A stretch of 64,000 nucleotides of DNA from Ectocarpus siliculosus (Eukaryota; Sar; Phaeophyceae; Ectocarpales; Ectocarpaceae), in the NCBI GenBank assembly GCA_000310025.1, contig FN649734.1, positions 5,091,547 to 5,155,546 of the forward strand, written 5' to 3'. The notes under the pieces were generated by a model that had not been told where the DNA came from, did no database searches, and was given only the letters and a program-made list of their open reading frames with translations. Both the position numbers and the translations under genes were made by a program. Shown here piece by piece: positions 26,301 to 64,000 of the stretch (position 1 is the stretch's first letter; every line of letters begins with the position of its first letter).

Positions 26301-28895
26301 TACGGACGATTCCGATGAAACGTCGGCCGAAAACCGAGAAGAGCTGTACGCGATCGCACTCACTACCATGNNNNNNNNNNNNNNNNNNNNNNNNNNNNNN
26401 NNNNNNNNNNNNNNNNNNNNNNNNNNNNNNNNNNNNNNNNNNNNNNNNNNNNNNNNNNNNNNNNNNNNNNTCGCCTACAGCTCTTCTCGGATCTCGGCCA
26501 CAGTTTTTTCGGAATCTTCCGTTCTCCCAATAACACCCCCCCGCCCCCCCCTCGGTGTTTGCCATCGGGATTGGGATTTCGTCACTTGGCAACGACGTTG
26601 TAAAACAAGCCAATTCACTTCATGAACTCGGCAACCAGGTTACCGGGGTTTTTTGTTGCCTCTGTTTTTATTTTGGCGGTAACCATAATGGTGGTCGAGT
26701 AGGTCATGTTGTGCGGGGTGGAGAACCCTCACTCCGCGCAAGGGGGATGATTGCACCACGTTGTGTTAAAATGGTCAAGCACCCTCGAGGCAGTTACACA
26801 GTGCTTATAACTGTCTCTGGAAGTGAAAGCACCAGAAAATAAATTATGTCATACGCAGCTGTCATCCGTACGCAAGCAAGTAAGCACAAGATGCCGAACA
26901 CCCTGAGCAGGATGCAGCGCACCCTTCATGCGACTCGCCGAATACCTCACGGCGCTTCGCGCTTGGTGATGTGAGAGCCTGGTCCGGTGAGAACCCGGCG
27001 TGCTCCGTCCCGACTTTGTAGGGATGCGAGGTCAATGGTCTAACGACTACGGCATGCACGATTATGAGTACCCACCCCCCCCCCTCCCCCCGCGCCACCC
27101 GGGTACGAGCAATTCGCGGTCAGGAACATCCACAAATTGAGCTTGATGTGATACGCATCAGCTTCTTGGACGGCCTTTTGATATTCCGTCAGTCCGTCAA
27201 CCTTGGGGCAGGTGTGCATCCGTGTTTTGGTGCGCACCGTTACTTTTCGAGGTTCTTGGCGTTCAGCTTTCGTCCACGGTTTCTCATTATTGAGTCGGAG
27301 ATTTTGGACGACAGTAGTAACAATCGTTGCCGCAACGCCGCACCTTCTCCTCCAACTCGAAATCCGCGTTGAAGCTCTCCACCGCCCGAATGGCCATCGA
27401 CAACGGGGCAACGGCGGCGGCGGCGTCGGTTTGTCGTCCCCTTCGACACGTGGCTGATCTCCTCTCTGCCGTGGCTTGCGGCGCGGAAGATAACCTCGCG
27501 CCTGGCCGGCGTATTTGTGTTTGTTCCGCAGCGTGCAGCCGGGGGAGGGGGGCACACCAGTACGCCGGGCAACAATGTTAGCGGTGCACATTGCACGTGC
27601 GGCGGGAGAATATTGTTGTCAGCACCATCCGATCTCTTGTTCAGTGCCCTCAAACTTATGTACCCTTAGCCCCATTTGAGCGGCTCGTGTTGTGGATGAT
27701 GGTCTAACTGATCGGACGCCTTCCCTTCGGACAGGCTTAACTACCCCCCAAAGGGCATAATTTTCTGAAACACGAAGAGATAACCATGTACTACAAGGCC
27801 CTACGCATATAGCAATCAACACCAAACGGGTCTCTCTTTGTATGTATGCACACGGCAGGTGTTTACAGTACAACACAGCACAGGTGAGGTGTTAACTGCT
27901 GTCATTATGCCGACAACGCGGGAGGCTGAGAAAGCGACCTGTCCGCGACACACAACAATAGCAAGCTTGACACACCAGATGAGTGTGCGTGTGCGTGAGC
28001 GAGCTGGCAGGTGTTTAAGTACAACGGGTGCCTCTCTTCGCTTTCGACAGCGATACAAGCTGTTGCTCAGACACATGTATGTACCACCTCGCTGTTGCCG
28101 CTCCCTGGTGCGGGGTTGACACGCGTTCACTGCTGTAAGGAATCCCTTAGACTCAAGACCCTCAAATTCAGCAACTGCTGCCTGCTGTAGGCCGCCGCAT
28201 AGATATCTGCATGGCTGGCTACCGGAAGTCAGGGAGATAGGGAGGGGGCGGGACTGAATCGTTGCTCGGCTCCTGCCGCTACCGCCGTGGCTGCAGAGTG
28301 TATTACTGCTGTCATCGGAGACAGCGGACGGTGCAGCGCGGAGTGTTCCAACCTGGGGAGAGCCTGCATGCGGGAAATAAAGCATCGGCTGTACTTTCTG
28401 CTGTAGACCGCTCTACAGCTCAAGGCCAGGGCCGGTTCTGTACAGCACGCAGAGCAGCATACAAGTGCCTTCTTGCTAATGGCTTATGCTGCCGAGGGCC
28501 ATAGTCTACATGTGTACACGTCTGGTGTTGCTGCCTAAACTTGAAGCGCGTCCTCAGTCCTCAGGGATGGGCGGACAGCCGGCTGCAAGCAGTACACGGC
28601 ATTCAGGACCGGAGGACGGGTGATTATATCATGTGGTACATGAAAGAGAGGAGCACGCTTCCTTCATCGAATCGTGTAGCAGCCGCCAACCTTCCGTATT
28701 CCATGCACCACGCCCTCATGAACATGCGCACGGCACCCACTCCACAAAGCAACGCCATATGTACAGCGCGCCCTCTCATGCTTTTACTTCATGTCATGTG
28801 GCGGGGTGAATCGACCCACCTCCCATTGGCACGAAGGCTGTGGTGGAAGACACGATTGCCGTGGCTGCGAGAACGTATGCTGCTGATCGCGCCAT
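23380..28895 (-). CDS. putative plastid-targeted protein of unknown function (complete, 6 exons)
   Basis: Exons in gene order: 28895-28820, 27501-27344, 25649-25559, 25280-25192, 24429-24233, 23518-23380. Phases agree at every junction and the total is 750 nt (249 aa). The N-terminus MARSAAYVLAATAIVSSTTA is a signal peptide followed by FVP, which fits the heterokont AF-type cleavage site; then comes an Ala/Ser/Arg-rich transit-like region to about residue 58. The mature part includes AIRAVESFNADFELEEK, LDGYLRHKDMIAEVCKQFDC, GMPKDIEEKFFLNEQYG, IFKPSRLCAVYKVDGL and a very basic helix LNERILRLRYRRSL. It ends in a charged tail (ENEKRKKEEAE, then GSDDDDVDLDS). No membrane segment is clear in the mature part and I recognise no family. 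The weakest points are the link from exon 1 to exon 2 and the donor GTTGTT at 24232. Intron 2 (25650-27343) holds several mobile elements and the assembly gap. Confidence 0.62.
24787..24810 (+). repeat. short TTAGGG-like tract
   Basis: About four degenerate units (TTAGG, TTAGGG, TTAGGG, TAAGGG) in an intron of the 249-aa gene. This is a telomere-type motif but far too short to mark a chromosome end. Confidence 0.7.
25830..25979 (+). repeat. repeat X, left copy (short conserved frame)
   Basis: This 150-bp block is an inverted copy of 27090-27234. Both keep one open frame; here it reads DGLSEYQK..QEADAYHIKL then NLWIFLTA. It ends at a GTACCCGGGTGGCGGGGGG junction that abuts a LINE fragment. 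Most differences between the two copies are synonymous or conservative, so the block was probably protein-coding at its source. It lies in intron 2 of the 249-aa gene but on the opposite strand. Confidence 0.7.
25985..26272 (-). mobile_element. LINE 3'-end fragment (copy c), flanked by a probable target-site duplication
   Basis: The minus strand encodes a LINE C-terminal tail: TELGKIQGTYREMFEAWN, then VAVLGSRKWFEEAGRDI and APSSRGRVVNG. The fragment at 42768-43185 is a diverged relative. It is flanked on both sides by CCCCCCGCCACCCGGGTAC (minus-strand reading), which looks like a target-site duplication of about 19 bp. The 3' end is C-rich rather than A-rich. The region encoding APSSRGRVVNG reads, on the other strand, like the tRNA-like head of the SINE. 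Confidence 0.75.
26280..26544. mobile_element. palindromic MITE-like element containing a 100-N assembly gap
   Basis: The left arm (26280-26353) and the right arm (26471-26544) are inverted repeats of about 74 bp with roughly 85% identity by eye. Both arms start with a G run and TGTTATT and run to GAGAAGAGCTGTA(C/G)GCGA. Between them are 17 readable bases and exactly 100 N (26371-26470), which is a gap of unknown true size. Long terminal inverted repeats with little inside suggest a MITE or other non-autonomous DNA element; the class is unknown. Confidence 0.65.
26941..27089 (-). mobile_element. tRNA-like SINE, copy b
   Basis: Reverse-complement twin of 10844-10994, with the same box-A-like and T-arm-like features on the minus strand and the same C-rich tail on the plus strand (27071-27089). 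The tail runs directly into repeat X. It lies in intron 2 of the 249-aa gene. The high identity with copy a implies fairly recent movement. Confidence 0.6.
27090..27234 (-). repeat. repeat X, right copy (short conserved frame)
   Basis: Inverted partner of 25830-25979. On the minus strand it reads VDGLTEYQKAVQEADAYHIK followed by LNLWMFLTANC. It starts immediately downstream of the C-tract of SINE copy b. It could be mistaken for an exon of the 249-aa gene, but it would break the phase between exons 27501-27344 and 25649-25559, which fit each other directly. Confidence 0.7.
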
Positions 28896-40280: not shown

Positions 40281-43200
40281 AGAAGAAGAAGGAGAATTGT
40301 CTACCGAAGACGCGGCGGAGGCGGAGGCAGTCCTAACTTCTCGGGGCCCCGCGACTGGGACGATGTAATCCTTGGGGTGGTCTAGCGAAGACACGGTGAG
40401 GGGGTCCTCGTCTTCCTCCTCCGACGAAGCCGCCGCTGCCGCCGCGGGCGAGCGCGACGAATACGACGACGACGACGAAGCCAGCGCCTCGAGGGCCTTG
40501 TTGATGGCCGCTTTTCGAGCGGAGGCGTTGGCGACCCCGGGCTGAGAGAAGAGAAGCCTCGCCTCCTGGTGGATGGGGAACGGAGGAAAACGCAACATTC
40601 AAGAAGTACGTGTGGTTCAGAGCGCGGCATCAACAGACAGACACGCGTGCAAGCAAACACATGTTGATTCTATGGCGTGTTAGATCTTCTCTAAAAGTGG
40701 AAACCTTTAATCAAATCGACCGTATTTACGTTCGACGGGTGCCAACGCTGCCGGTATGTACAAAGAAAAAACAACTCATGTCTCCAAAGGGCACCAAGTA
40801 GATCAACAAGATCGCCACGACTTAACCTTCACCACTTGCTGTCCGGGTCAGCCCGTGCAGTATGTGCGTGTACTAGTGGTGAGGCTACTCTGGGGCTCAA
40901 AGGAGGCAATGCTCGATGGAGGCTATTTGTAGAACGATCTTCAAAGTGTGAAAAAAATAACAACAGGCTAGAAGGATGTTTGCTATAAACAACTGCAGCT
41001 GCAGCAACGACAAAAAAAACGCCGCCATCACGCTTTGATTCAAACCACACTGTACAGCGGCCCCACTTTTGTGGCAGTGCCGGAGTTGCCTACATCATGG
41101 CCGATCAAACATTAGACGACGGTGAGGAGGACGAAAACCGTTGCCACCGACTGTTACAAGAAAGCGGCAGTCCACGAAACAGACAAACAACACCGACCCG
41201 ACACGAATTTACTAATTGTTACACACGCACCTCCAGCAGCTCCGTTGCCGAAGCTCCGGCCGAATTCTTCGAAGAAACGCCTGGTGCGGTGGAAACCTCT
41301 TCTCGCGGCGGCGGGGTAGGGTCTTCGGCGCCGGCTTTTACCTCCGGGGCCCCATCCTCGGCAGCATCGTCGACGGCCGCCGCCTCGGTGAAGGCGGCAG
41401 CGTCAGGGGTAACATCGTCGGCAGTCACTTCGCTGATGGCATCGGCAGCGTCAGGGGTAACATCGTCGGCAGTCACTTCGCTGATGGCATCGGCAGCGGC
41501 ATCGGCAGCGGCATCGGCAGCGGCATCGGCAGCAGCGTCGTCGACTGCTGCTGCATCATTAAAGCCGGCGGTGTCAGCGGCATCGTCGTCAGCGTAGTCG
41601 ACTGCCGCTGCATCAGTGAAGGCATCGTCGTCAGCGACATCGTCGACGGCAGCCACCTCAGTGACAGCGTCAGCGTCATCAGCAGCATCGTCGAAACCAA
41701 CCAACTCAGCGAAGGCGGCGGTGTCAGGCGCAGCATCGGCAGCAGCATCGTCGACGGCCGTTGCCTCAGTGAACGGGGCAGAATCGCCCGCAGCACCGTC
41801 ATCGGATACCATCTCAGTGAAGTCGGCAGCGTCGTTGACAGCATCGGCAGCAACATCGTCCACGGTCGCTGCCTCAATGAACGGGGCTGCATCAGGGGTA
41901 GCATCGGCAGCAGCATCGCTGGCGGCAGCCACCTTAGTGTAGGCAGCAGAAGCAGCAGCAGGTTCAGCAGCAGCATCGTCTACGGCCGCGGCCTCAGAGG
42001 CAGCATCGTCGATGACATCGTCAGCAGCATCGAAGACCGCAACCGCGTCAGTGGAAGCGGCAGTTTCAGGGGCAGCATCGTCGAATACAGCAGCCGCGTC
42101 AGCAGCATCGTCGACCGCCATCGCCTCAGTGACGGCGGCGGTGCCAAGGGCAGCGTCGGCAACAGCATCAATCACGGCATCAGCATCTGCGGCAGCAGCA
42201 GCAGCAGCAGCAGCATCACCAACCTCAGGCGCCACGGGAGCCGCGGCCGTCGCCGTTGTAGCCTCTGCCTCCGGCATGAACAAGGTCTTGGGGTCGTACG
42301 CGGAGGCGCGGGAGTAGTCCGAGGACGACGACGACGAAGCGGGTGACGAGGGCTTTGCCGCTGCTGGTGCTGCTGTTGTAGTGGGCGTCACTGCTGGCCT
42401 AGACGAAGGGTCGAAGCTCCGGGGGCGGTAGAACCTTGTCCCGTGGCTGCAAGGATTGAAGGACGAGTTGGACCCCCTTCTCTCGATCATGCTCTGGAGA
42501 ACGAAGACAGACGCCACAACAAACGGCGAGGTTTCAATACACTACTGAAAATACTTCACCACATCCCTTTCGACTGAGGTTATTTCTCGAACGGGTAGTC
42601 TTTTTGTGAGGTTATGTTTACTTTCTGAAAACGGCGAGGAGGAGTTGAGAGTTAAAAAGTGGAAGATGCCATCAGGTGCAGCAACTAGACGTGAAAAAAG
42701 GCTCGAAACAGGAGTGACGCGAGGCCAACGGTCTAACGACTACGGCATGCATTTGCGTAAGAACAACCCCCAATTTCGAGTGTGAATGCGGCGCCGAGCG
42801 CGAAGACCGGATTCATGTTGTGGCAGAATCCGTTTTACGAAAAGGAGAGAGAGCTGTACACGACGGAGCTGGGAGAAGTAGAAGGAAGGTACAGAGATGT
42901 TTCGAGGCATGGTAGCCAGGAGAAGAAGGTAGCTATACTGGGGCACAGAAAGTGTTTGAAAAGGTGGGAAGTGATATCGATAGGATAGATAGGGTGCAGT
43001 AGGGACAGCATTTTTGAACCACATTTGGCAAAACGAGTAAATAGGCAGGAACGATTGGCCTTCGGTGATCTTTCCTGGGAGAACAATGGTCCGTCCTCTC
43101 GAGGGCGCGTGGCCAACGGTCTACTTGTAATCGCTAAGGCATTCAGAAATGGAGTACGCCCACCCCCCTCGCCCCCCCAGCAAAACAGGGTGAAATACTC

Positions 43201-45231
43201 TTCGTTCACGAGACATGTCGCACTTGATAAGCATACAATACGGCATGCCCCGAGGTGTTGTTACATCTGACGTCTTTCAAGTATGAATACGAGCGTCTTC
43301 AAAGCAGCAGAACGCAGTGATAAAAAAATCCACTAACTCAAAACAATGCTTCTACTTATTCTACACGGCATTTCTCTTGCTGCCGTTGCATTTCACCCAT
43401 GAGAGGGAGAGAGAGAGAGAGAGATGCACACCACTGAGAACGGCCAACAAGCGACCGGCATTCATACAGGTATGCTACGGGTGCCAGAACAATTTCGTCT
43501 ACAACCGCAATATAACAGGCTCACCACCAAGCTCTTGACCTTCTGCAGTGGAACGACGTCGGTGTCACTGGGACCGCCGATGGTACTACGCCGGCTCCGG
43601 GCCGCCGCCGCCGCCGTTCCCAAGCCTCCGTCCCGTTCGCACGCAGCAGGAGCAGGAGTGTCCATAGTAGCACGTCGAGCAGCAGCAGCGGCAGGAGGAG
43701 GAGGGCTAGCAGCCCGAGCACAAGCAGAAGCAGCCGTAGCAATGGCAGCAGCGGCGGCAGCAGCATTGTTGTGCACCTCCCGGTCCATGTCCAGCTTCCG
43801 CGAAGTGCTCCCCCTGCGGCGCCCTCCCGCAGCGCCGGCGTATCCCGCCGCCACCGCCGCCGCCGCCGCGGCGGCAGCAGCGGCCGCAGCGGCCGCGGCG
43901 TTGGCGCTTTGCGTCATGATCTTGGCGGCGTCAGAGAGCGCCGCATCAGCAGCGTCGATGGCGGCCGCGACCTCTTCCTCGGAGTGATCCCCGCCGCCGG
44001 CAGGGCCCTCCACGACAACCGGCCCCACCGGTGACAGCAGCAGCTCGGCCGTGGTATCTTGCGCATTCGGAGCGGTGGCGGCGGCTGCGGCGGCCGGTTC
44101 GGGAAGGTCGTGAGAGACTGCTGCTGCCGCAGATGACGATTCGACGACCTGCTGCCGTTGCTGTTGCTGTTGCTCCTGCTGTTGTTGCTCGTCTGCGGGG
44201 CTATTTGGAGGGGTGCCGTCGCGAGACGAAGGGTCCTTGGCAGGGGCAGGAGAGGCAGTGACAGCAGCAGCAGCAGCCGCCGGAGAAGCAGCGACAGCAG
44301 CAGCAGTGCTAGGGGCGCATGAAGAATCAGCAACGGCCTTTGCCTTACCCCGGCCACTGGTGGCGCTCCTGCGGCTGCTGCTGGTGACCCGAACCTTCCG
44401 GTCGTCGCAGCTGGACATCATTTCTTTCCACCACCGGACCAAGCTCGCCACCTCACACCACACCAGCAGGAAGACGAGAAGGGCCATCACCAGCATCGCC
44501 GCCGCGGCGTGATCGTTCACGTCCCGGCCGAGCGCCGCGCCGACTCGCGCGCTTGACCGCCTCGAGGTCTCCTTGACCAGCCGGCCTGCCTCAAAGGTCC
44601 TCTTAGTCAACGCCCTCCCCCCCTCCGTCAAAGCTACCGCCGGCTGCAAGACCGTGCGCTGCGCAACAGCAGCAGCAGCAGAAGAAGAACGCTCGTGCTT
44701 GGCCTGCTGCTGCTTTGGAGATGGTTCCACGGCAGTTGCGGGCCTCTTCCTTTGAGCAGGAGCCGGTCGCCCTTCCGCCTTTGGCGCGTTTGGAGCCTTT
44801 GGCGGCGCCGGGCTGTGCACGGCTCCGTTCACGGACGCCGTGACGTAGGTGGTGTAGGATGACAGCACGTCCGTCCATGCGTCCGTCGCTGGGGAAGTCG
44901 GCGCCGGCGTTATGGGCGGCAAGGCGGCACGCGCCGCCGCCTTCTCGCGGGCGGGGGCGGGCGCCCGCTTCTCGGCCTTGCCGGCAGGAGCATCTGCGGG
45001 GATCGACGGCGAGGGCGGTAGAACCACCGAGCTCACGGCGGCCGTTGCCGAAGCCACAGCGTGGGACGTCGAGTTCACCACCCCGTCCGCGGCTTCGGTC
45101 GCGTAGTTCACGTAGGAAGTCACGCACTCCGCCCACGTCGCCGGGGGCGGAGGCTGCGCCGCCTCCGCCGCCGCCCGCGCCGCCGCCGCCCTTGCGGCCG
45201 CCGCTCTGCTGAGCACGGAGTAGAGAAACAT
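31049..45231 (-). CDS. giant Ala/Asp/Glu-rich low-complexity protein with one membrane segment (11 exons, all phase 0)
   Basis: Exons in gene order: 45231-43525, 42493-41231, 40565-40017, 39338-39189, 36982-36602, 36105-35413, 34693-34220, 33490-33164, 32454-32311, 31595-31407, and a tentative last exon 31123-31049 with its stop. Every exon is a multiple of 3 and every junction is phase 0, giving 1,983 aa. Exon 1 holds two related segments (WAECVTSYVNYATEA and WTDVLSSYTTYVTASVNGAV) and one hydrophobic segment at about 240-262 (AAAAMLVMALLVFLLVWCEV). Exon 2 is an Ala/Asp repeat of the kind AVDDAADAA. Exon 6 is a Glu-rich probable coiled coil with LPREPIERKQ repeats; exon 7 has DLPGCGFYP and DLPGCGYYP; exon 8 has AWYQREI, AWYGRDM and EWYEELGY. 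I recognise no family. A membrane-anchored, mostly disordered acidic protein is all that can be inferred. It could in truth be two genes; the shared phase and strand argue for one. Confidence 0.5.
34713..34740 (+). repeat. GGGA microsatellite
   Basis: About seven GGGA units directly upstream (in gene order) of exon 7 of the giant gene, inside its intron. A similar run lies at 37018-37038, near exon 5. Confidence 0.95.
39730..39890 (+). repeat. 72-bp tandem repeat, 2.3 copies, in an intron of the giant gene
   Basis: The units start CAT(G/T)GGTCAGC at 39730, 39801 and 39873; the third is partial. The related words CATTGGTCAG and GCGCGGTCGA recur near 49857-49885 and 39946-39955, so this belongs to a dispersed repeat family. 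Confidence 0.85.
41397..41540 (-). repeat. in-frame coding tandem repeats: 48 bp x 2, then 12 bp units
   Basis: Two perfect 48-bp copies (41397-41444 and 41445-41492), followed by about four 12-bp GGCATCGGCAGC units, all inside exon 2 of the giant gene. Unit lengths are multiples of 3, so the repeats add whole Ala/Asp-rich modules (ISEVTADDVTPDAA and ADAA) without breaking the frame. Confidence 0.9.
42714..43185 (+). mobile_element. SINE 3'-tail joined to a LINE 3'-end fragment (copy d), in an intron
   Basis: 42714-42767 matches the SINE 3' part (GGTCTAACGACTACGGCATG) and ends in a short C run. It is followed directly by a decayed LINE C-terminus: ECECGAEREDRIHVVAE, then in another frame KERELYTTELGEVEGRYRDV, and later QERLAFGDLSW and PSSRGRVANG. 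At least two frameshifts show it is dead. It ends in a C-rich tail at 43158-43183. It lies in the intron between exons 1 and 2 of the giant gene. Confidence 0.75.
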
Positions 45232-46585
45232 GAGCACGCGAACAGGCCCGCCTTGGGGTCGCCGGCGGGAGGTCTGCCGTTAACTTTTGAGGATGCAACG
45301 AACGAACGAGAGTCTTGGCCCAATTCCACAAGAGCGCTTCTGCGCCGGTTGCGAGGGAGCACAGCAGCACGGGGAGGGGAAAGCAAAGTTGGGCATCGGC
45401 CTTTGCATCATGCGCGGACGCGCAGCGTGTGCGATGCAGCGATCATTTGTGTGCAGGTTGCATCTGTGGGGTGACCACGTTGTTGAAGGAACCCTTCTGC
45501 TGTTTTTTGAAAAGTCTGCAGGGGAGGGAATAAGAATGGTGCCGTATCTCACCTGTTGTACCTTACAAAGCGCGAAGGCGCGGTCTATTACCGGTGAAGG
45601 TCAGCTCGAGCTTACGGTTGCGGCGCACGCAGGCCCCGCACGACGGTATGTTTGCCCGTAATGGCGCGTTGTGAGGTCTCCCTCTCGCCTCTCGTGGCCC
45701 CTCCTACCGCCTGTACACTGAATCTGGAACGGGCGAACTTGCTGGCTCGGACGAGGGGGCCCGTCAAACTGGAAACACGCTCACATGCCAGGTACCGTAC
45801 TACCTCTGAAAAAAAAATGCGGGAACGAGTGTGGAGGGGGTGCGGGGAGGGAGGAGACTCTTCGAGCTGCTGGAGGTACCAAATGCCAATCAAAGGCCCA
45901 AACTATAGCAGCAGTAGGCTTCATACGATATTTCTATTGGAAAGTGCCATTCGGACAACATTCGTTCGCCTTTGGATACGTATCGATCGGTGACAAAATT
46001 GATCTGTGCTGAGAACAGCAGTTACCACTCACTGCTGTAAGTGAGATCAACGATGAAGATTATTACGTCGTTCCTCGCTCCCCGCTTTGTTGTTCATGTC
46101 GGGTATCATTAGGAGAAGGTCAATGGGGTGGTCGACAGCATGGGGCAGGCGATTAACACGAAATACGAAAGTAAACGTGATCCACGAAACGAAGCGTGTG
46201 CGATTGCCATGCTACGATTCACCACAAAAAAATAGGAAAACATTCTGCTACACGCTACATTACCGTAAGTAGATTAACTGCCGAACCATTTTGAGTGGGG
46301 GATCTTCGGATTTATTTCATCGAATTTGCGTCGCCTTACTCCATGTTTACATTCGGCCTCGCGCCATGTTCTGGCGACAGCTTCCACAAAACAAAACCAG
46401 TGCTGCAAACTACGTTGGGGGCAACCACACGACAAGAACAACCGCCGTCCCAACCAGGATAGCCGCCCGTCAGATGTTCGTTCGACATTCGACATGAAGG
46501 AAGACCTTCGTAGAGACCGCTGTAGGGGAACGAATCGGAGTGGAGAACGAGACCTCGAAGAACACTTAAGGTTGGATGTTTCGCA
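45232..46585. other. intergenic region, no gene recognised
   Basis: This 1.35 kb lies between the methyltransferase stop (46586) and the start of the giant gene (45231), both on the minus strand. It should hold the promoter of the giant gene and the methyltransferase 3' UTR. No further coding or repeat structure was recognised. Confidence 0.5.
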
Positions 46586-52532: not shown

Positions 52533-55500
52533 TCACAAGCCCTTGTTATACCATACCCGGGTCACCGGTTTCCCCGCGGAATCCGAAAGGCCCGAAAACT
52601 TGGGCTCTAGCGTATCTACCTCGAGAGAATCCCGCTGCGGGAAGAACGCCAGCGCTGGCGACACGGCCGCCAGCAGGCAGGAGGTCACCACCGCCGTCTC
52701 GCAAGCCATGCGAAGTCGCGGGCTCGAAGACACCAGCCGCAGGCGCTCCAGGCGCGACATGATCATGGGCGGGAACATCATGACGGGAACGTTCCAGATC
52801 ACCCGGGCCGCCGCGCACTTCATCAGCCCCATCTTGCCAGCCTGCGTTGTAGGGGTTCCGCAAGGGTGGATCGGAGGGGGGGGGGGTCAGATCTCTTGCC
52901 AGGCGAAACAAACCATACGGTGGGGGGGGTGGGATGCCGTACCACCCAAGGAACCCCTCAGCCTCTCTGTATGGGTTGCCGCGTTGTTCACCATCCCCAT
53001 CTTGGCAGCCCGAAATTTCGGAGCCAGGTATACACAAGAGCAAGGGTTCGTTAACATTGCCGAATATTTGAGCGTGATGCCAGAAGATTTTGCCTGGTCA
53101 CCGAAATCATCCATTTCAGACCATGACTACAGCTCCGTTTCCGGTTACGAAAACATGTTTTACATATGGGGTGTGGGGGGTCCAGGACAAGGCGTGCGTG
53201 TATGGATGGAAACTTCAGCCTCGCTGATGCGCCATCATGTGAGCTTGGTTTGTCGCCTGTCGACCAACACCCGCACGTACACTGTGCTGTTGAACGAGCA
53301 CAGCGGCATGCCTACCGCGTTTAATTCATCCATACTACTTTCGGTGCACGCGAGCAGCGGCCCTGTGCACACCGCACAACCAGTGGGTTACAATCGCGTC
53401 TGAGGCGTGTTCGAGGCACCGCTACAGCAGTTGGGGGTGGGTGGTGGGGGGCGAGACCAAAATAGTGGGGCGAGGCCAAAAACCAGCAAGACCTCTTGAA
53501 ACCTTCTCACAAGAAGCCGAGGGCAAGGCTACAGCGGTTGAGATTTCATGCGATGGGCATCTTCTGCAGCGCGTCTAGGCTTGGATCCCATCAGTACCAG
53601 GGCAAGCCCCGCGCAGCAAAGAGGGTTTCCGGATAAATTTCAAAGTTAAAATGAGGATGTGTCTCGAAGTCTTTAGACCCACGTGCGAGAAAAAGCGATC
53701 CTGGTTGCCATACTCGGGTGCATCAAGGAGAACGCGAACAATACGGCGGTACTGTGAAAGCGACTGCATTCCCGTGCATGCACACATCGCGCCCCTCTCC
53801 AATCTCAGGCTACAGCACAGGGATATCTCAGAAGGGAGCTGAGCTTCAGCAAGCAAAAAAAAACACTGCTGTTGCTGTAAGGTCCCGACACTGGTACTGG
53901 TCATTGATGAATTCTTTTTCCGACAGACCGAGGTACGACAGGAGCAAGACGTTCTGAAGTGCCGGCACTACTTGTACTTACGCACGAAACGATTGGCACA
54001 AGTGACTACAACACCTTTCCAGGAAAAATAATGGGACTTCAACGCGAACAGACTTGACGTTCCTCGACTTCACTGAAGAACGATTTCTCGACTTCACTGA
54101 AGAACGATATGCATACATCTGTGGTTACATGCTCGTTAATGCAAACCGAGTGGAACATCGGACGGTGAGCGGTAATGTGGCAAACGAGCTTAGCATACTG
54201 TACAACAATGCAACCTTTGCAAAGAATTTTCTTCCAAAGGCCACTTCAAACAGCAAATGGAACTTCGACAAAAAATCCGGCATTCCGTGCTCGGATATAT
54301 AAGAAGGCGGAGAAAAATGTGTGGTACGCATAGATGCGTTGGGTGTGATCAGGAGCCTCGAATGTGACAAGGATACAGCAGTAGTCCCGCGTGGTACACC
54401 GCGACAAAAAACCGAACCAGAGGAAAACGGGTTCTGTCCATAGCGAAGACTCAACGTTAACGGGAAGCATTTATCACCCACACAACATCGCGGAGGGAAA
54501 TGCACCTCTAAGCAAGTGTGCAATAGCGGTCACGCTTGGTATATCTACTGCCGTGTAATGTAGCCTGTGACCCAGTCTGTTCACCGACACGTCTGCCATT
54601 GTCGAAAAAGAATCCCAATCGCAACCATGCGTCGTAGCCAGCGTGGGAGATCGGTCAGACCAACCAGGAAGCTTTAGTCGAACCACGGCCACATCTCATC
54701 CGGTAATAGGTTTGCAATACATACAACGCTGTGCACGGTTGTCTGCTCTAAGGGCACCCTAAACTCTAAACCCGGGCAAGTTGTGCACACAACCATCTTA
54801 CACTTCAAAACAGCACTGCGTTGGGAACAACCCAGCAAAAGCCACACCAACAACACCTACCTCGACGCTCTTTCCCAAATCCTTGCCCTCGTCGTCGAAC
54901 ACGTCCACCCCCGTTGTAAGCTCGTTCCGTCTCATCAGCAGCACGTTGCTCGCTCCGGCGCCGGCCACCGCCAGGAACGGCAACGTGGACCGAATGATTG
55001 CCGCCGCCGGCCCGCCCGCCCCGCCCGCGCGCGCGGCCACCCTCTTCGTGAGCGCGGTCGAGAGCATGCCTATCGACAGGGACGTGATCACCGCTCCCGC
55101 GTAGCCTTCCACGAGCCGCGCCCTGGGCACCGGGTTGGACGCGTTCCGGTTGGCGTAGTTGATGGCTGCGTTGTACGTCTGGTTTAAGAAGTGGATGAAG
55201 GCCGTCGCCGGGAAGCTCGAGATAACGGCCGGCGTGACGGTTGCCGTGACGATCACCATGTTCACGGGCACGAACGCCGAGAAGCGGAAGAGAGGGAATA
55301 TCGGCTCCCCGGTGTCCGGATGGAGGGCGGACTCGAGCACGCGCCGGGCATGCCACAGGTCGGCGTCCGTGGTGCCCTCAGGAGCTTCGCCGATGTCGGC
55401 CAGCTTGAGCAGCTTCTCCGCCGACTTGGTGTCCTCGTCCGTGAAGAGCAGCGTGCGCGGGTCGTTGACGCTGTAGAAGTGCAGCATCCGGCCCACGAAG

Positions 55501-55586
55501 GTTGACATGTCGTAGCGCGGGCCCTCGCGTCGGAAGGGCGGGACCTCCTGCGCGTCTGTGACGGCGCTGCTGAACTCTGCGCCCAT
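52533..55586 (-). CDS. SFXN: sideroflexin, mitochondrial inner-membrane amino-acid transporter (complete, 2 exons)
   Basis: Exon 1 is 55586-54861 and exon 2 is 52841-52533. The junction is phase 0, and together they encode 344 aa, close to the usual 320-330. Family marks in order: RYDMSTFVGRMLHFYSVNDP then RTLLFTDEDTK; LWHARRVLESALHPDTGEPI; the signature LNQTYNAAINYANRNAS; LVEGYAGAVITS; LLMRRNELTTGVDVFDDEGK; FPPMIMSRLE; LAFFPQRDSLEVDTLEP; and the typical C-terminal end VWYNKGL. Sideroflexins sit in the inner mitochondrial membrane with several membrane spans; SFXN1 imports serine for one-carbon metabolism. No cleavable presequence is visible, as usual for the family. The single intron is long (about 2.0 kb), with a G-rich tract next to its acceptor. 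The ATG at 55586 starts the conserved region and agrees with family length. Confidence 0.95.
54063..54110 (+). repeat. 24-bp tandem duplication in the sideroflexin intron
   Basis: CTCGACTTCACTGAAGAACG plus four bases occurs twice back to back, differing at one base. Confidence 0.9.
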
Positions 55587-57367
55587 GGTGGTGGGTGGGT
55601 GTTCTGCTCTGTGTGCGTCGTGTTTGCCTCTGGTGCGCTGCTGCTTCGGCTGCCGTTCTCCTGCGGTTCCCGGCCGCAGTACCGCTGCTGTGGTATGGTG
55701 ATGATGCCGAAGCTCAGAGCAGATCGGTCCTGGCCGCAAGGCGAGTTGCCCGATTGCTCTCTGCGCTGGAGAGGGTTTCGTCTGCAATCAAGCAAGCGCA
55801 GCCGACGACGAGGGTGTGGCGGAGACTGGAGAGCAAGAAGGGAGGGAGCGGCGGAGAGGCTGTGCAGAAGACGCGCTACGGCAGCAGTGCGCGGTGAAAC
55901 CAAAATTGAAACACGGGGCCCCGATGAGCCTTTGCATTTTGATTCCCCCGCATTTTTTTCGCAGCAGCCAACACAACTGTTCTTGATGCAGGGATAGTGG
56001 CAGCATAACCCCACCCACACACCCACGCGCGCCCCTGCAAGAGGAGACGGGGGGAGACGAGCCCAAACAAAGGGGGGAGGTCACCTGAGGTCTGGGGCGA
56101 AGGTCTTTAAGATTGAGTGGTGGCGGCGTTGGAAAACGACTGCAGTCGGGTGAATAGCTGGATACCACGGGTCCGTGTGGTGACCGCTGATCCTTGATCC
56201 TTTGTCGTGTGTCGCGATCGTTCTTGTTCGGGCATTCGAACGTCTGTGGTCCTCTTGATCGAGGTGCGTGGTGGATAATGCTCAGCAGGTGTTCGCGCAA
56301 TCCCGAAAATATGCTACGCCCGGCTTGCAATGTTCTGTTTCCTGTCCAGTCACCGACCAACGCTTGATCGACCGCAAAATAGAGCCATGTATTCTGCTGC
56401 GTACGGTATGTAGTGTGAGGAGCAAGAATCCTGCGTTTGTAGCCCATGCCACTGTTGCTGTGTATGCTACAGCTAACAGCAGCTCGATCGGCCGTCTGTT
56501 CAACTTTGCAATTTTTCAATCTACAAGTGGGAGCCTCGGTCTACGTCTGTGGGGAGTGTTGAGTGGAGGGTGCTTGAGCTTATCGTCAGAGATGCCAACA
56601 AAAGGTTCTCAGGACCTTCCCATTTAGACAATTGAGTGAAAAGGCACATGTGTTGCTCCCCTCATGGAAGAATGACAACAAACAGCAGTAGATTGTCCTT
56701 TTTGGATTGACCAGAAACTAATGTTTGCATTACAGTTGTCAAGAACACTATGTACTGTAGTGCATAGCTCCATCGGCTACCGCATTTGTTTCTTCCTTGC
56801 TAAGAACACAGGCATGCGTTTGTGTCCGTGGGCGGTTGGAAGCGCGCAGCGAGAGGTTTTTATTTCAAACAAGAACCTCGCTTTAGCACTTCATTCAAAT
56901 CCCAGCTTTGTTCGGCACTGCTGCAGCAGACGCATTATTTGCATGTCGAGGCTGGGTCGCTAGTGGTATGACATTGTTCACAGTTGTTCCAGATTCCCCC
57001 GCGGGAAAGCATGGAACAACGGTCTGTCCACTCTGTACAGGATCCCATGGCATTGGCTGAATGGTTCAGTTGGTAAGCTCGTTAAATCCCCAAGCTGTAG
57101 GGTGTGGTTTCCAATGTCTCCAGAATGAAAAAATCTGGCCTTTGTACTCCTGACAGCACACAGCGAGGAGGTTAGCTGAAACGGTCTCGCGTTAGCACTT
57201 GAAGTCAAAGACCGCAGGAAGAAAGGTGGAGAGTTCCTTCTGTGTGACCCTATCTGCTGCGTGAACGTGTACCGGAGGGTGTATGGCGGGCAATAGACAC
57301 GACCAGTGGCGGGTGCGGCGACCGAACACCAGGTCTAATCGCCAAACTGTACCACACGCAGGTGCCC
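55587..57367. promoter_or_regulatory. divergent intergenic region between sideroflexin and LRR-GTPase genes
   Basis: This 1.8 kb should hold both promoters. A CAG just before 57362 would be a normal acceptor for an upstream 5'-UTR exon of the LRR gene. At 57049-57118 a tRNA-like stretch occurs: box-A-like TGGTTCAGTTGGTAAGC, with ends that can pair over 7 bp (one G-U). The rest does not fold as a standard cloverleaf, so a decayed tRNA-derived repeat is more likely than a tRNA gene. Confidence 0.4.
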
Positions 57368-60300
57368 ATGGCTGATACGGATCGCGGCGCACTGAAGGCC
57401 TTATTTCGTTCGACCGGCGGGGTCAGATGGAAGAGGAAGGACAACTGGGACACAGCCGCTGACCTACATGTCGCAACGTGGTTAGGAGTCGAAGTCAACC
57501 ACCAGGGCCGCGTGATGAAGCTTTCCCTCGATAAGAACAATCTCCAAGGTATTATTTCCGCCTCTCTTTGCTGCTGATAGAGATAGATGTGCATGGCCAC
57601 CCCTAACTATTCGTGATCGGTGAGTGATCCTCTTAAAACGTGTCGGCAGATGATTTTGCCAGCCATATTTTTTGTTCATGGCATGCATTCCATTTCCCAA
57701 CTCTTTGGGGTGCTCCGTACGACTTCACAATTCCTTGCCAAACGTACCCGTACCTTACCTAATAGCATTGACAGTTTGGTCCCCAGAAAATGTTATGCAA
57801 CCTCAGCACAATCACAACCAGTTGCATGACGCCTTGCCCACGCGTTGGGGGGAAACCTCTTCTAGAGCACGGAACAAAAATCCACAACAACGATGATACC
57901 CCGTTTACTCCTCCGTGTATCTTGCGCAGGGCCTATGCCTGCGGAACTGGGAGCTCTTGCCGAGCTGAAGGAGCTTTGGCTACATATCAACAAACTTGAA
58001 GGTGAGACGCGTGCACCTAATCAGTTTTTCTACACTTGTAAAAAGGTTGCTTCACGGGGAGATAGAAGGCTAGTTTTCCTGCGCGTGGGCAATTAGGCCA
58101 TCACATGCTCTATCTAGAAGTACGGCGAGACAACCTTATTGTAGATGCCAAAGGAATCTATTTTTGCAGTTCCCCGTTAATTTCATTTGTTCTTCATTTC
58201 TGCAGGTCCCATCACGCCGGAACTAGGAAGCCTCGCGACCCTCAGGCTCCTCTACCTCGGGGGAAATCAACTTTGCGGTGAATACGCGACATGTGCATGT
58301 TGAACGTTTCCTTGATCGAATTTCGGGATGAACGCTTTGGCGGATTTCATGACGGAGTCGGCACGAGTCCTCTCAAGTTCTGTCTGTTCACCGTGCGCAC
58401 AGGATGTATTCCCGGGGCGCTAGGATTTCTCAGCAACTTGGAAGTTCTTCGACTCGAAAACAACCAGCTTTCCGGTGAGAGGCGTTAGCAACCGTTTCGT
58501 GTTGTCCGACATGTAGAGAGAGGCCCCGTTGGCTTCTAGAAGAGCAATGACCTACCCACCCACCGGCGTGTGGGGAGTGGGATCACAGGCTCTGGGGGTA
58601 TGCGCGTTGATGAACATGCTTGCTTCGTGTCTCCGTTGGGTGTGTGTTTGCCCCTTGGCCGCAGGTCCCATTCCGCAGGAGCTGGGGAAACTCACAGCTT
58701 TGCGCTACCTCAACCTGTCAGAAAACAAGCTCAGCGGTGAGTTCCACAGCTAAAAATGGGTCTGAATCTCAACAATTGTTGTTGTTGCTCGCACATGCGT
58801 CCCGTCAACGTGGGTGAGCAACATGTTGAAGAAAACAATTTAGTTGAGATACATCATGAACTTCTACTACAGAGAGATACAAAGCACCGGTGCATGTAGT
58901 GACTACTGCTTCGCTGGTTCTTGTGGAGGGCAAGGGGCTCCAGTCCTCACAAGTCCGGCGGGATTGGAAATGCAGCTAACGAAGAAATAGGAACTAAGTG
59001 ATGTGCGTATGTGTGTATGCGGCAAGAGTAGCCGATTGGCCGCGGAGCATTCCATAGAAGTCGGACTACACATCGCCCTATGCTCTCATGGCACGCTGGT
59101 TGAGATGTGCCAGCGCTTCGGAGACACGCCCCGTGCCAGCTGCGAGCGAGCGAACGAGCAACGCTCTTCAGATGCCTTGAAACAATAACGAATCCGCCAT
59201 GAACCTCTCCAACACGTGGGTGGGCAAGTGTTGTACAGAACACCAAAACGCGAGTGTTGTTTGCGAGGGACCGCGTCTCCAGCTTGGTCCATCGAAGCGA
59301 ATTTCACAACGTGAATGAGACTTTTAGAACATGAGACCCTCCTACTCGCCAACGCAAGATCCACATTCTAGCTCTTTTTCGTTGTTTTTCTTTTGTGTTG
59401 GCTCGTGCAGGGCCCATCCCCAAGGAGCTGGGAGCCCTCACCGACCTGAAGAGGATTGTGCTGTTCGATAACCAACTTACAGGTAAGACGCGGTGGATTT
59501 GAAAGAGAAGATGTATGTTCGTTTTAGCGGTTGGTTTTAGTCGTGTCATGTACTACCGTCGCCCATTGTCTACCTACCCTGTCGTGTACCAAGCTTTCCA
59601 GTATGTGTTGCACTCATTTCCAGCACTGTTGCGAGCCACCTTAGATACAAGAACTTGTTCTGAAGATTACATGTAAGCCATCTTTGAACGCGTGAGAGCC
59701 GTATTGGGTCTTTCTGACTGGTATGTATTAAGCGGCGCATCTTGTAGGAAAACGGCACGGGGGGTTGATGATGCCTCCAGGCGTTCCTATCGTGTGCCAT
59801 AAACGAAACAGCGCTGGCAAGCAGGATCTTCTTCTTCGGCAAGGCTCGTCCGCCTATTTTCGCGCCTAGTAGGCTCTACTCTCACTTGACTCTGGGTTCA
59901 ACAACTGCGTGTGACATGTGGCTCATGCAGCGTAGTTGCCATGGGTAGGATGAATGAAAACGTTTTCTCAGCTTGCCCGGGTGCAGAGCCACAAACGACC
60001 AACGTTAGCGGCCCCGCTTATGCTGGAACCATGATCAACGTCGAAATAAAGCACACAAATTTGTTTTGATACAGGAGAAGCCAATGTTGTCCTCACAAGG
60101 CGGCATACATCTATAGTTCGTCTGCTCCGGGGTATGATGCGATCACGTGTGTTTTATCCGCTAGGCTATCTGCTTCCTGAGCCCGTGTTCTGTACGAGCT
60201 TACACACTGGGGCAACACCGTATGCCCGTCTTCCCTGTGGTTGTCTGCGCTTGTATCTGTCTGGTACTCTGTTCGCTCGACAGCTCTCTGGGACCACACC

Positions 60301-63162
60301 CACTACCTACAAGATATCGTCCACGAAGAAGGAGCTCACGGGATGTCAGGTGTGACTGGAAACGGCGCTGTACGCACAGCATTGCCCTTGCCACAGTAGG
60401 TCTCACTGTAATAGGTGTGCATGTGTATGCCTCACTGGAAGCGGTGAACGTCGCAATCACTGTCCTCGATGCCAGCAGCAGTGCCAGGCTAGAGTCTTGT
60501 TCCGGAATACTTATGGTGGAGAGTATTTACTGGGTGGACAAGCAAGCAATATCTGTTGGGTGCAATCCAAGGCAACACCTGATTGGTCGTGCTCCATCAT
60601 GAGTGATTCTTCTCGCACCACAACCGACGTCGAACATCCACTCGACATGTTGCAGTCTTGTGTGTTAGGGTGCACCATTACTGTTCGCCCCACCCGTAAC
60701 GTAGATACTCTGTCCTCACGTTTCAACTTCGTCGCTCGTTGTGCGCCCACCACGAGAGAACGCTGAGCAGGCTGCACTGGAATTTTTCAGCGCCAGATGT
60801 TGGGGCTTACTGGAGCATCTACACTTTAGCCTCGTGATAACCATCCTCCCAAAATGTTCGTACTCTACATGGCTGGGTAGGTGGGCGGATTCCTAGCCAG
60901 CTGTGCCGATTGCTTGACGTCCTGGATCGTGCAGAGGGAGGGGTCCTCAGTCTCGAGGATAACCCATGGGCTGAGCCTCCAGAGTCCATCGTGGCCAAAG
61001 GCCCAAAGAGTATCAGAGGGTATTTTGAAGATCTCTATGCCGAACCCTGTCGGGTCGAGCGCAGCAGCGTCAAGGTCATTCTTGTGGGACAGGAAGGTGC
61101 AGGGAAGACAAGGTTGGTGGAGAGGTCCTGCTCGTGGCCACTACTGGATTGGCATCAAATTGTGGTTTGCTAGCATTTCTCGACAGAACAGTACATGTGG
61201 CGGTAGTGGTGAGAAAAGTTTCAATACGCTCGCATGATAATGTCGCATGGACGGATTTTGAACAGGATGGGGGGTGGCCAACGTGAAATCCCCTTGTTTG
61301 AACTCTCTGCTCCAGACGCAGATACTTCTGTTGGTTTGTGTGGCTTGCGCTTTTTCTACCCAACTAGTTTTGCTCCTCGGTGGGATTTTATTGTTGCAAG
61401 CGGAATATATCAAACCAAAGCTACAGCATTGCTCCGGCCTCGCTTTAGCCTGCGTTTGGCTTTAGGCGCTCGAGGACCAACCATGGCGGCCTCAAGCTTT
61501 TCGCGCCGATCGACCCCTTTGCGAAATGATCTCCGTCATTCTCATAACGGAAGAAACTCGTACCTACTTGTATCCCGTGCAGTCTGCGCCAGAGCATGAA
61601 GACCAATGAAGCAACTCCTACGGGCGATTGGAAGGAGGAGAGCACAGTTTTCGCTGACGTGGAGCCCATGGAACTCGAAGGTTCATCCGTTCGAGTGTAC
61701 GATTGCGCTGGACAGGTGACAGGTGTTGTTCGAACGATTTACTTACCGCTCAATTGATACGTTGATTGAGGTCGTTGCCCAGGCCCTGGTTCTGCGTCCG
61801 GCATCATACATAGAATACATGCCTTGCTTCACCTTCGGCTTGTAGTGCGTAACAAAATAGGTGGTGTAATACATGGTTGCGGATGCGTGAAGTTTCGTGT
61901 TAATCTCGGCGCTTGCGCGAAACATGTTTTTGGTGTTTGCCCCCTATACGGGAAAAAACCGAAGAGCCGCCGACGCCGTATTGACGGGTTACTGTCTTCG
62001 TTCAGCCCTAACAAAATACCCAATCTCGCTCCTTTCGACGCCCCCCTGAGAGTGCCCATATTACCCGGTGGGAAGCCCTTGCGCACTTTCGTGTAGGAGT
62101 GCTGGCAGCTCTGATTCCGTATTGTGTTGTGGTCTGCACCATAAGGTACATGGACAACCCCTGAGTTGAAGTGGCCACAGGGAAATGGGGCACCATTTGT
62201 TGGGAAAAAATTCAGCGTTCGTGTCCTGTATTTCCTCCTTACGTTATTTTGGGGTTAAGATGTGATGTTTAATAGCATTTTCGCACGTTGCCTTCAAAGA
62301 AGAATTTGGAATGGCGTTTAGGTGTGAAGCACAGGGACAGGGTGGTGCACCTAAGCATGTCCCCCGAGTATTGTATCTTTCGCGCCGAATGGGTCGGGGT
62401 CATTTGTACACCCCAGATGTTTGGGGTGGGGGCGTCGCAGCATCCTGCTCACGAACTACGGTAGCTAGGATTTTCGAGCGCCTTAGAATGTATCAATGCG
62501 AATCGTGTACAATTGTCGTGCTATTTACACGCCATGGAATGATATTCAACCCACAACGAACCTACCTATTACACGCTGCTGCAGGCCGCCTACACCGGGT
62601 TGCTGCAAATGTTCCTGACGCCACGGTCGGTCTGCGTGCTAGTGTGCAACGCGGAGGCTTTCGGACAGCAGCGAGCTAACGACACCGGTGGTCAGATTAT
62701 GGAAGACTGTCGCAAGCTGGAAGAACTGCGAGTCTGCGAGTGGCTACGATCTATCGCTCGCCGCGTTCCCGACAACGACGCCATCCTGGTGGCCACGAAG
62801 TGTGATCTGGTGGGCGGGAACGCCGCGGAGGTTGGCAGAAGAATGGAGCAGGCCTGTCGAATGTGGCTTGCGAGCTGGGTACGCAATGGTATGCAGCCCG
62901 TTCGTTTGGAGCACGGTGTTGGCCTCACGAGCTGCCGGCCTACAAGATTTGGTGAGCATGGCGAGAGGGGCACTGCCAACCACACGGTAGAGGGCGGCTG
63001 GGTGTGCGACTGGCGAGGCCATATTGGTGATGACTCCGCGCCCGGTTTGCTCCACCGGCTCGTCAACAAGCCCGACGGGGGTGGTCTTCGAGGAACGCAG
63101 TTGGTGCTTCCTCGCAGCTGGGACATTGCCCTCACAGTCCTTGAAGCTCTGGAGAGTGGACG
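57368..63162 (+). CDS. LRR plus Roc-GTPase (ROCO-type) protein, 5' part; 3' end beyond recognised exons
   Basis: Exons: 57368-57548, 57930-58001, 58206-58277, 58403-58474, 58665-58736, 59411-59482, 60901-61112, 61583-61715, 62585-63162. The N-terminal cap (MADTDRGALKALFRSTGGVR, then WLGVEVNHQGRVMKLSL) is followed by five exons of exactly 72 nt. Each is phase 1-1 and each encodes one 24-residue plant-type LRR such as GPIPQELGKLTALRYLNLS. Exon 60901 gives LSLEDNPWAEPPESI and the P-loop GQEGAGKTS, completed across the next junction. Then come the G3 motif YDCAGQ and, in the last exon, G4 TKCD. This is the Roc GTPase order; a COR domain should follow but was not found. The family is expanded in Ectocarpus, where LRR exons are known to be gained and shuffled and an immune-receptor role has been proposed (Zambounis et al. 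2012). One junction does not fit: exon 59482 ends in phase 1 while 60901 starts in phase 0, so an exon is missing or lost. Confidence 0.85.
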
Positions 63163-64000
63163 GTGAGCTCGATTCGGTTCGGTTGTTGGGCCCCACAGCC
63201 ATCGTCAAGGAGTTTTTTGTCACACCCAGGGATCCTCCGGAATAAGAACTTTGGACGCGTTGCTCCCTCGCCGGAGGGACGTTTCGAAATCTGCGCGAGT
63301 CTTCTTAAGCCATCGTCCGCGTTAAAATTCCTTCCCCGTCGTTCGAGTGACACGTTGAACGAAAACAGAACATTAGTGGGCTGTGAGACGTTCCTACGCA
63401 TTCAATCATTTTCTGTTGCTCGCCGCGGCGAAACGCTGCATTCAGCTGCTCCCGTTCGTGGAGGTTGCATGCATTTTAATGATCTTCTCTTGGCAAAGAA
63501 CTCGCAAAGGCGTAACGAAATCTGCAGCCAGATATACCACCGATTACATCACAGAGGGAGCGGAATGACCTCTAGGCCCTCGATGACGAAGTCAAAATCT
63601 TTGACTTTCGTGGGTTCTGCGTGCGAAGCTGTCGACAAGCGTGAGACTCGTGGAGTGTCTGCAATAGCACCATATATCGGCCAGTCCCGCAATATCACCA
63701 TTGTTTTCAAGGTGGCAACTTGTTTTGACCTCTGTCCAAGGCGATGAAACGATTTCACGTGGCTACAAGCCGACCCAACGAAAGGTTGATGTAAAACACA
63801 ACCATTTTGGCAAACGGTGTATCGTGAACTCCTAAAAACAGATAAACATTTCAAAATTTCAGAAATACAGAACGTGGGGTAGGGCGGGAGTGCCTACCAA
63901 GCAAATAGAGCTGGATCAAACGCAGAATGTACTACCGCGTCTGGGGTTGGGAACAGCGGGAGTTTGCAGCGACGTGCCCCATGTCCCCCACTTCTTGCCG
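63163..64000. other. downstream of the last Roc exon, no exon recognised
   Basis: A good GTGAGC donor at 63163 implies that the LRR-GTPase gene continues. I could not identify a COR-domain exon before the window end. The frame at 63163-63747 shows no family motif. Confidence 0.4.

Follow-up and report, generated by a model that had tools for sequence, protein, structure and literature searches.

In the closest system described, the genes of the brown-algal ROCO proteins, each LRR exon is 72 nt long, 'nucleotides 3 to 71' encode 23 residues, the phase is constant and a Roc domain follows (Teng 2024, PMC11378527), and the statement that such an exon holds 72 nt and 24 residues is attributed to Zambounis 2012 in an article of 2014 (PMC4104024). 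The one-repeat-per-exon ROCO layout has thus already been described in brown algae, in which it is believed to help diversify candidate immune receptors. The published number of LRR motifs ranges from 4 to 49, a profile detected COR in no more than 18 of the 111 brown-algal ROCOs, positive selection has been described at repeat positions 14, 16, 18 and 19, and splice variants of LRR exons have been documented in two Ectocarpus ROCO genes, Ec-06_001640 and Ec-08_002960, with alternative splicing being favoured over somatic recombination (Teng 2024, PMC11378527). LRR exons have been reported in noncoding regions as well (Zambounis 2012, as reported in PMC4104024).

We analyzed a 64,000-nt stretch of Ectocarpus siliculosus DNA (hereafter the window), and at 57930-59482 found five exons of exactly 72 nt, all of phase 1-1, in the places and of the length that the initial annotation had given. 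AG stands directly before and GT directly after each of the five exons, nucleotides 3-71 of every exon comprise 23 whole codons, and both ends of each fall within a glycine codon, divided 1+2, so that the bordering introns are of phase 1 in the usual sense. The claim that one exon equals one LRR was likewise borne out. Teng 2024 names the exon arrangement 'phase 2' (PMC11378527), a difference that we take to be one of convention, because the exons described in that paper also code from nucleotide 3. The LRR-LRR introns measure, in order, 204, 125, 190 and 674 bp, in agreement with the annotated range of 125-674 bp, and the other four introns of the gene 381, 1398, 470 and 869 bp.

The five-exon LRR array is far beyond chance. 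The whole window, read on both strands, contains 260 open AG-72-GT phase-1 stretches, and an LRR motif, composed after the exons had been seen and hence partly circular, was present in six stretches, these being the five exons plus an offset reading within exon 2; when the window, minus its N run, was dinucleotide-shuffled 60 times, motif-bearing stretches averaged 0.07, with a maximum of 1. The run in question, 100 N at 26371-26470, is probably an assembly gap. A leave-one-out profile test is less circular: whichever four exons supplied the profile, the fifth was the next-best of 2467 open window pieces in 5/5 cases, scoring 10.2-26.3 bits (Table 1), compared to 5.1-7.0 bits for the best other piece. 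A stricter first motif scan recovered 4/5 LRR exons, with exon 5 being missed because isoleucine replaces leucine at repeat position 15. At other exon lengths, the same scan picked up a stretch rich in leucine on the minus strand, near 25.1-25.3 kb, which we take as low complexity.

Table 1. Features of the putative ROCO-type gene (positions within the 64,000-nt window)
Feature	Position	Strand	Remarks
First coding exon (model)	57368..57548	+	ATG, 60 codons + 1 nt, with the LRR N-terminal cap; phase 1 at donor G|gtatta
LRR exon 1	57930-58001	+	72 nt, phase 1-1; leave-one-out 20.1 bits
LRR exon 2	58206-58277	+	72 nt, phase 1-1; leave-one-out 18.4 bits
LRR exon 3	58403-58474	+	72 nt, phase 1-1; leave-one-out 10.2 bits, weakest
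LRR exon 4	58665-58736	+	72 nt, phase 1-1; leave-one-out 26.3 bits
LRR exon 5	59411-59482	+	72 nt, phase 1-1; leave-one-out 25.3 bits; repeat position 15 is I instead of L
Last partial LRR / C-terminal cap (by eye) + Roc start	60881..61112	+	P-loop GQEGAGKT
Roc domain exon	61583..61715	+	ends in DCAGQ
Roc domain exon (TKCD motif), possibly start of COR	62585..63162	+	donor G|gtgagc at 63162/63163

Joined to their neighbours, the five exons form part of a nine-exon partial gene model on the forward strand (57368-63162), encoding a 494-residue partial protein. Searched against Pfam, the whole model matched LRR_1 (2.1e-16), LRR_8 (2.3e-15) and Roc (2e-12), all above cut-offs, with the LRRs lying N-terminal to Roc (best LRR_1 stretch at residues 120-142, Roc at 245-376), and the Roc part alone matched PF08477 with an E-value of 4.1e-13 and 50 bits (cut-off 27), over profile positions 1-119 of 119. 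This part carries P-loop, DxxGQ and TKxD motifs. On its own, the first exon matched LRR_10 weakly, at 18.7 bits and E 0.0015, under the Pfam cut-off of 30. Taken together with the published brown-algal exon layout, the LRR_1 and Roc matches above Pfam cut-offs support the identification of a ROCO-type gene. The following count against it: COR had no Pfam match in the single downstream open frame scanned (63145-63747; the window ends at 64000), the Ras family model is also above its cut-off on the Roc part, albeit at 30.4 as opposed to 50 bits, and in the PDB the Roc part has weak matches, with Rho, Ras, Arf and Rab GTPases leading the best 60 of 183 and a best E-value of 0.00043.

The model is uncertain at two points. 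The pyrimidine tract of the acceptor between exon 5 and Roc (TAG, 60878-60880) is poor, and use of this acceptor brings in one extra residue relative to the repeat register, and at the last-exon donor the frame, if left unspliced, hits a TGA at 63164-63166, so that the 3' end is uncertain, the stop codon adjoining the donor. The end of the last exon resembles a COR start, and the gene probably runs on past the window end. No signal peptide is apparent by eye, and the protein is therefore probably cytoplasmic. Searches for protein relatives by pattern matched 9 stretches in viral_contigs and 39 in genome_contigs, with 0 confirmed in either; these are virus and prokaryote collections and say little about algae.

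On the opposite strand, divergent from the ROCO gene, lies part of a sideroflexin gene (54801-55787; PF03820, 4.4e-68). Elsewhere in the window, two overlapping open frames on the minus strand (2-634 and 606-1169, together spanning 2-1169) look by eye like the end of a LINE-type reverse transcriptase, and two long, alanine-rich and composition-biased frames on the same strand (41219-42541 and 43462-45279) are probably low-complexity sequence; none of the four had a Pfam match at E 0.01. Scans of the window for tRNAs, and against Rfam at the gathering threshold, returned nothing.

Based on these features, we consider it very likely that the locus encodes a ROCO-type protein working from LRR to GTPase, composed of an N-terminal cap, five LRRs, a C-terminal cap, a Roc GTPase and, probably, a COR domain beyond the window. 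In this working model, the five exons would supply the middle repeats in the LRR domain of what is most likely an intracellular LRR-GTPase, a partner or ligand would be bound by positions 14, 16, 18 and 19, which the LRR solenoid exposes on its concave side, and binding at the LRR would be passed on to the Roc GTPase switch. The same-phase, one-repeat-per-exon layout allows repeats to be duplicated, lost or spliced out without a frameshift, which would let the binding face vary. We infer both the ligand binding by the LRR face and the signalling through Roc, and a use of the protein as an immune receptor, with a pathogen-related role, may be put at just under an even chance.

Positions 14, 16, 18 and 19 each hold five different residues in the five repeats, and so do positions 4 and 11; as evidence of selection, such columns were rejected, for random codons give them with a probability of 0.41-0.51 per column. 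Pooled pN at the four positions is 0.82, a value reached by 8 of the 495 four-column sets (own set included) drawn from 12 non-scaffold columns, which were picked after the data were seen, and by 8 of the 8855 sets drawn from all 23 columns. As a set, the four are among the most replacement-rich positions in the array, and pN at positions 8 (0.82), 23 (0.78) and 4 (0.71) exceeds that of position 19 (0.68). With pS at the four positions being 0.76, and both pN and pS at saturation, the excess of pN over pS proves nothing, and a dN/dS test was dropped because synonymous differences are near saturation. The replacement pattern agrees with the published one, and on pattern alone selection and lack of constraint are inseparable.

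The alternative that survives best accepts the same gene and takes it to be static, with the exon-per-repeat layout being an ancient leftover from the tandem duplication of exons and the protein serving in development, stress or housekeeping signalling rather than in pathogen recognition. We find this plausible, though we would sooner bet against it; it overlaps with the preferred ROCO-type reading on identity, and our confidence in the two is not meant to add up to certainty. What speaks for it is the age of the array. The ten exon pairs are identical at 34 to 47 of 72 nt (47-65%) and have 9 to 12 of 23 residues in common, and 38/70 codon comparisons at the seven invariant residues show a difference, compared to 49 expected if drawn randomly from the gene's codon usage. 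When the eight introns were compared to the window by blastn (E up to 0.5), no intron-intron match was obtained within the gene, the 7 non-self matches (13-24 nt) all lying outside its other introns, and strings common to the 60-nt flanks of two LRR exons reach 8 nt at the longest. A search for repeats across 57200-61200 placed the starts of 4/5 LRR exons in one family and returned, besides, three short families of direct repeats and two pairs of inverted ones.

No spare or degenerate LRR exon was detected in the introns (those of 674 and 1398 bp especially), in the rest of the window or on the other strand, and nothing beyond the five exons exceeded 7.0 bits among the 2467 open pieces, using a profile that also left the half repeat at the first-exon end unlisted and may thus miss partial or decayed repeats. 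Noncoding LRR exons are a genome-level feature, larger than the 64 kb surveyed. The exons being diverged, the introns unmatched and no further LRR piece detected, the array looks old and shows no recent duplication or exchange among the copies inside the window, which were those compared. The near-identical exon copies or related introns that would mark a recently shuffled array are absent from it, and actual LRR exon shuffling, which the initial annotation had proposed, was thus not supported here: the exons have diverged, no introns match and no unused LRR exon was detected.

A static gene would further be in line with the case of the gonadotropin receptors, whose LRR exons are similar in size and in phase, and with the stress-responsive expression of many ROCO genes (Teng 2024, PMC11378527). 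It is at odds, however, with the clustering of replacements at concave positions published as positively selected, and with the LRR-exon alternative splicing published for two Ectocarpus ROCO genes (Teng 2024, PMC11378527). All 32 subsets of the five LRR exons keep the frame to the last modelled Roc exon, so that the exons can be skipped in frame as well as swapped, the latter as the initial annotation had stated, and retention of any one intron leads to a stop (8/8 introns). Because all 32 exon subsets stay in frame, exon skipping would be the simplest route to variety, and we infer that the ROCO-type gene at 57368-63162 may be alternatively spliced. That its five in-phase exons act as a combinatorial cassette, in which regulated skipping, or even somatic reassortment, yields up to 32 LRR combinations that tune GTPase-receptor recognition, is unlikely.

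It also appears improbable that this ROCO-type copy is a pseudogene. In its favour, ten ROCO genes are predicted to be pseudogenes in the newer version of the Ectocarpus genome, and 20/37 were earlier (Teng 2024, PMC11378527), and the acceptor at 60878-60880 is poor and puts an extra residue into the repeat register; against this, each of the nine modelled exons is open, with the frame kept at every junction, and the P-loop, DxxGQ and TKxD are present. As for a reassortment of LRR exons by somatic recombination, it is suggested by the symmetric exon layout only, whereas the exon flanks share at most 8 nt, no spare LRR exon was detected in the window, and the vertebrate-type recombination signal heptamer is absent at 57301-61000, though the mechanism need not use that signal. 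This idea of Zambounis 2012, as cited by Teng 2024, we consider very remote, given also that neither somatic rearrangement nor a recombinase has been reported according to the latter (PMC11378527).

The best whole-model PDB matches (best 60 of 300) are headed by plant LRR receptor kinases (FLS2, GSO1, ERL1 and others), which are membrane receptor kinases. They match through the LRR part, in repeat type only, whereas here a GTPase follows the LRR and a signal peptide could not be made out by eye; shared function cannot be concluded from this match. Gonadotropin receptors are not GTPases of the Roc kind. Their LRR exons are in phase and similar in size (as stated in Teng 2024, PMC11378527), and a literature search on 72-bp LRR exons in other receptors found nothing relevant. 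In LRRK2 and other ROCO proteins, an LRR part precedes a Roc GTPase as it does here; the Roc of LRRK2 is a weak match (0.017, among the best 60 of 183 PDB matches of the Roc part), and unlike in LRRK2, no kinase or other domain was seen in the part inside the window.

The nearest counterparts are the brown-algal ROCO groups 1-2. The locus differs from them in that no spare noncoding LRR exon or recent exon exchange was detected within the window, where five LRR exons are present and COR is not visible. C-terminal domains of the kind that marks groups 3/4 would fall outside the stretch analyzed. The locus resembles groups 1-2 in the following: the same 72-nt LRR exons in constant phase, with nucleotides 3-71 coding for 23 residues (5/5 exons) and followed by Roc, and the same high variability at positions 14, 16, 18 and 19. 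The fit to the published brown-algal exon idea, put forward from the start, therefore holds for exon layout and LRR-Roc order, both of which agree with Teng 2024 (PMC11378527). Should arrays of this kind prove variable, brown algae would possess a means of diversifying intracellular immune receptors that is their own, alongside the means used by plants and by animals, and although the locus does not itself display the variation, it offers a small, clean five-exon case of the brown-algal ROCO layout in which transcripts would readily reveal exon skipping.
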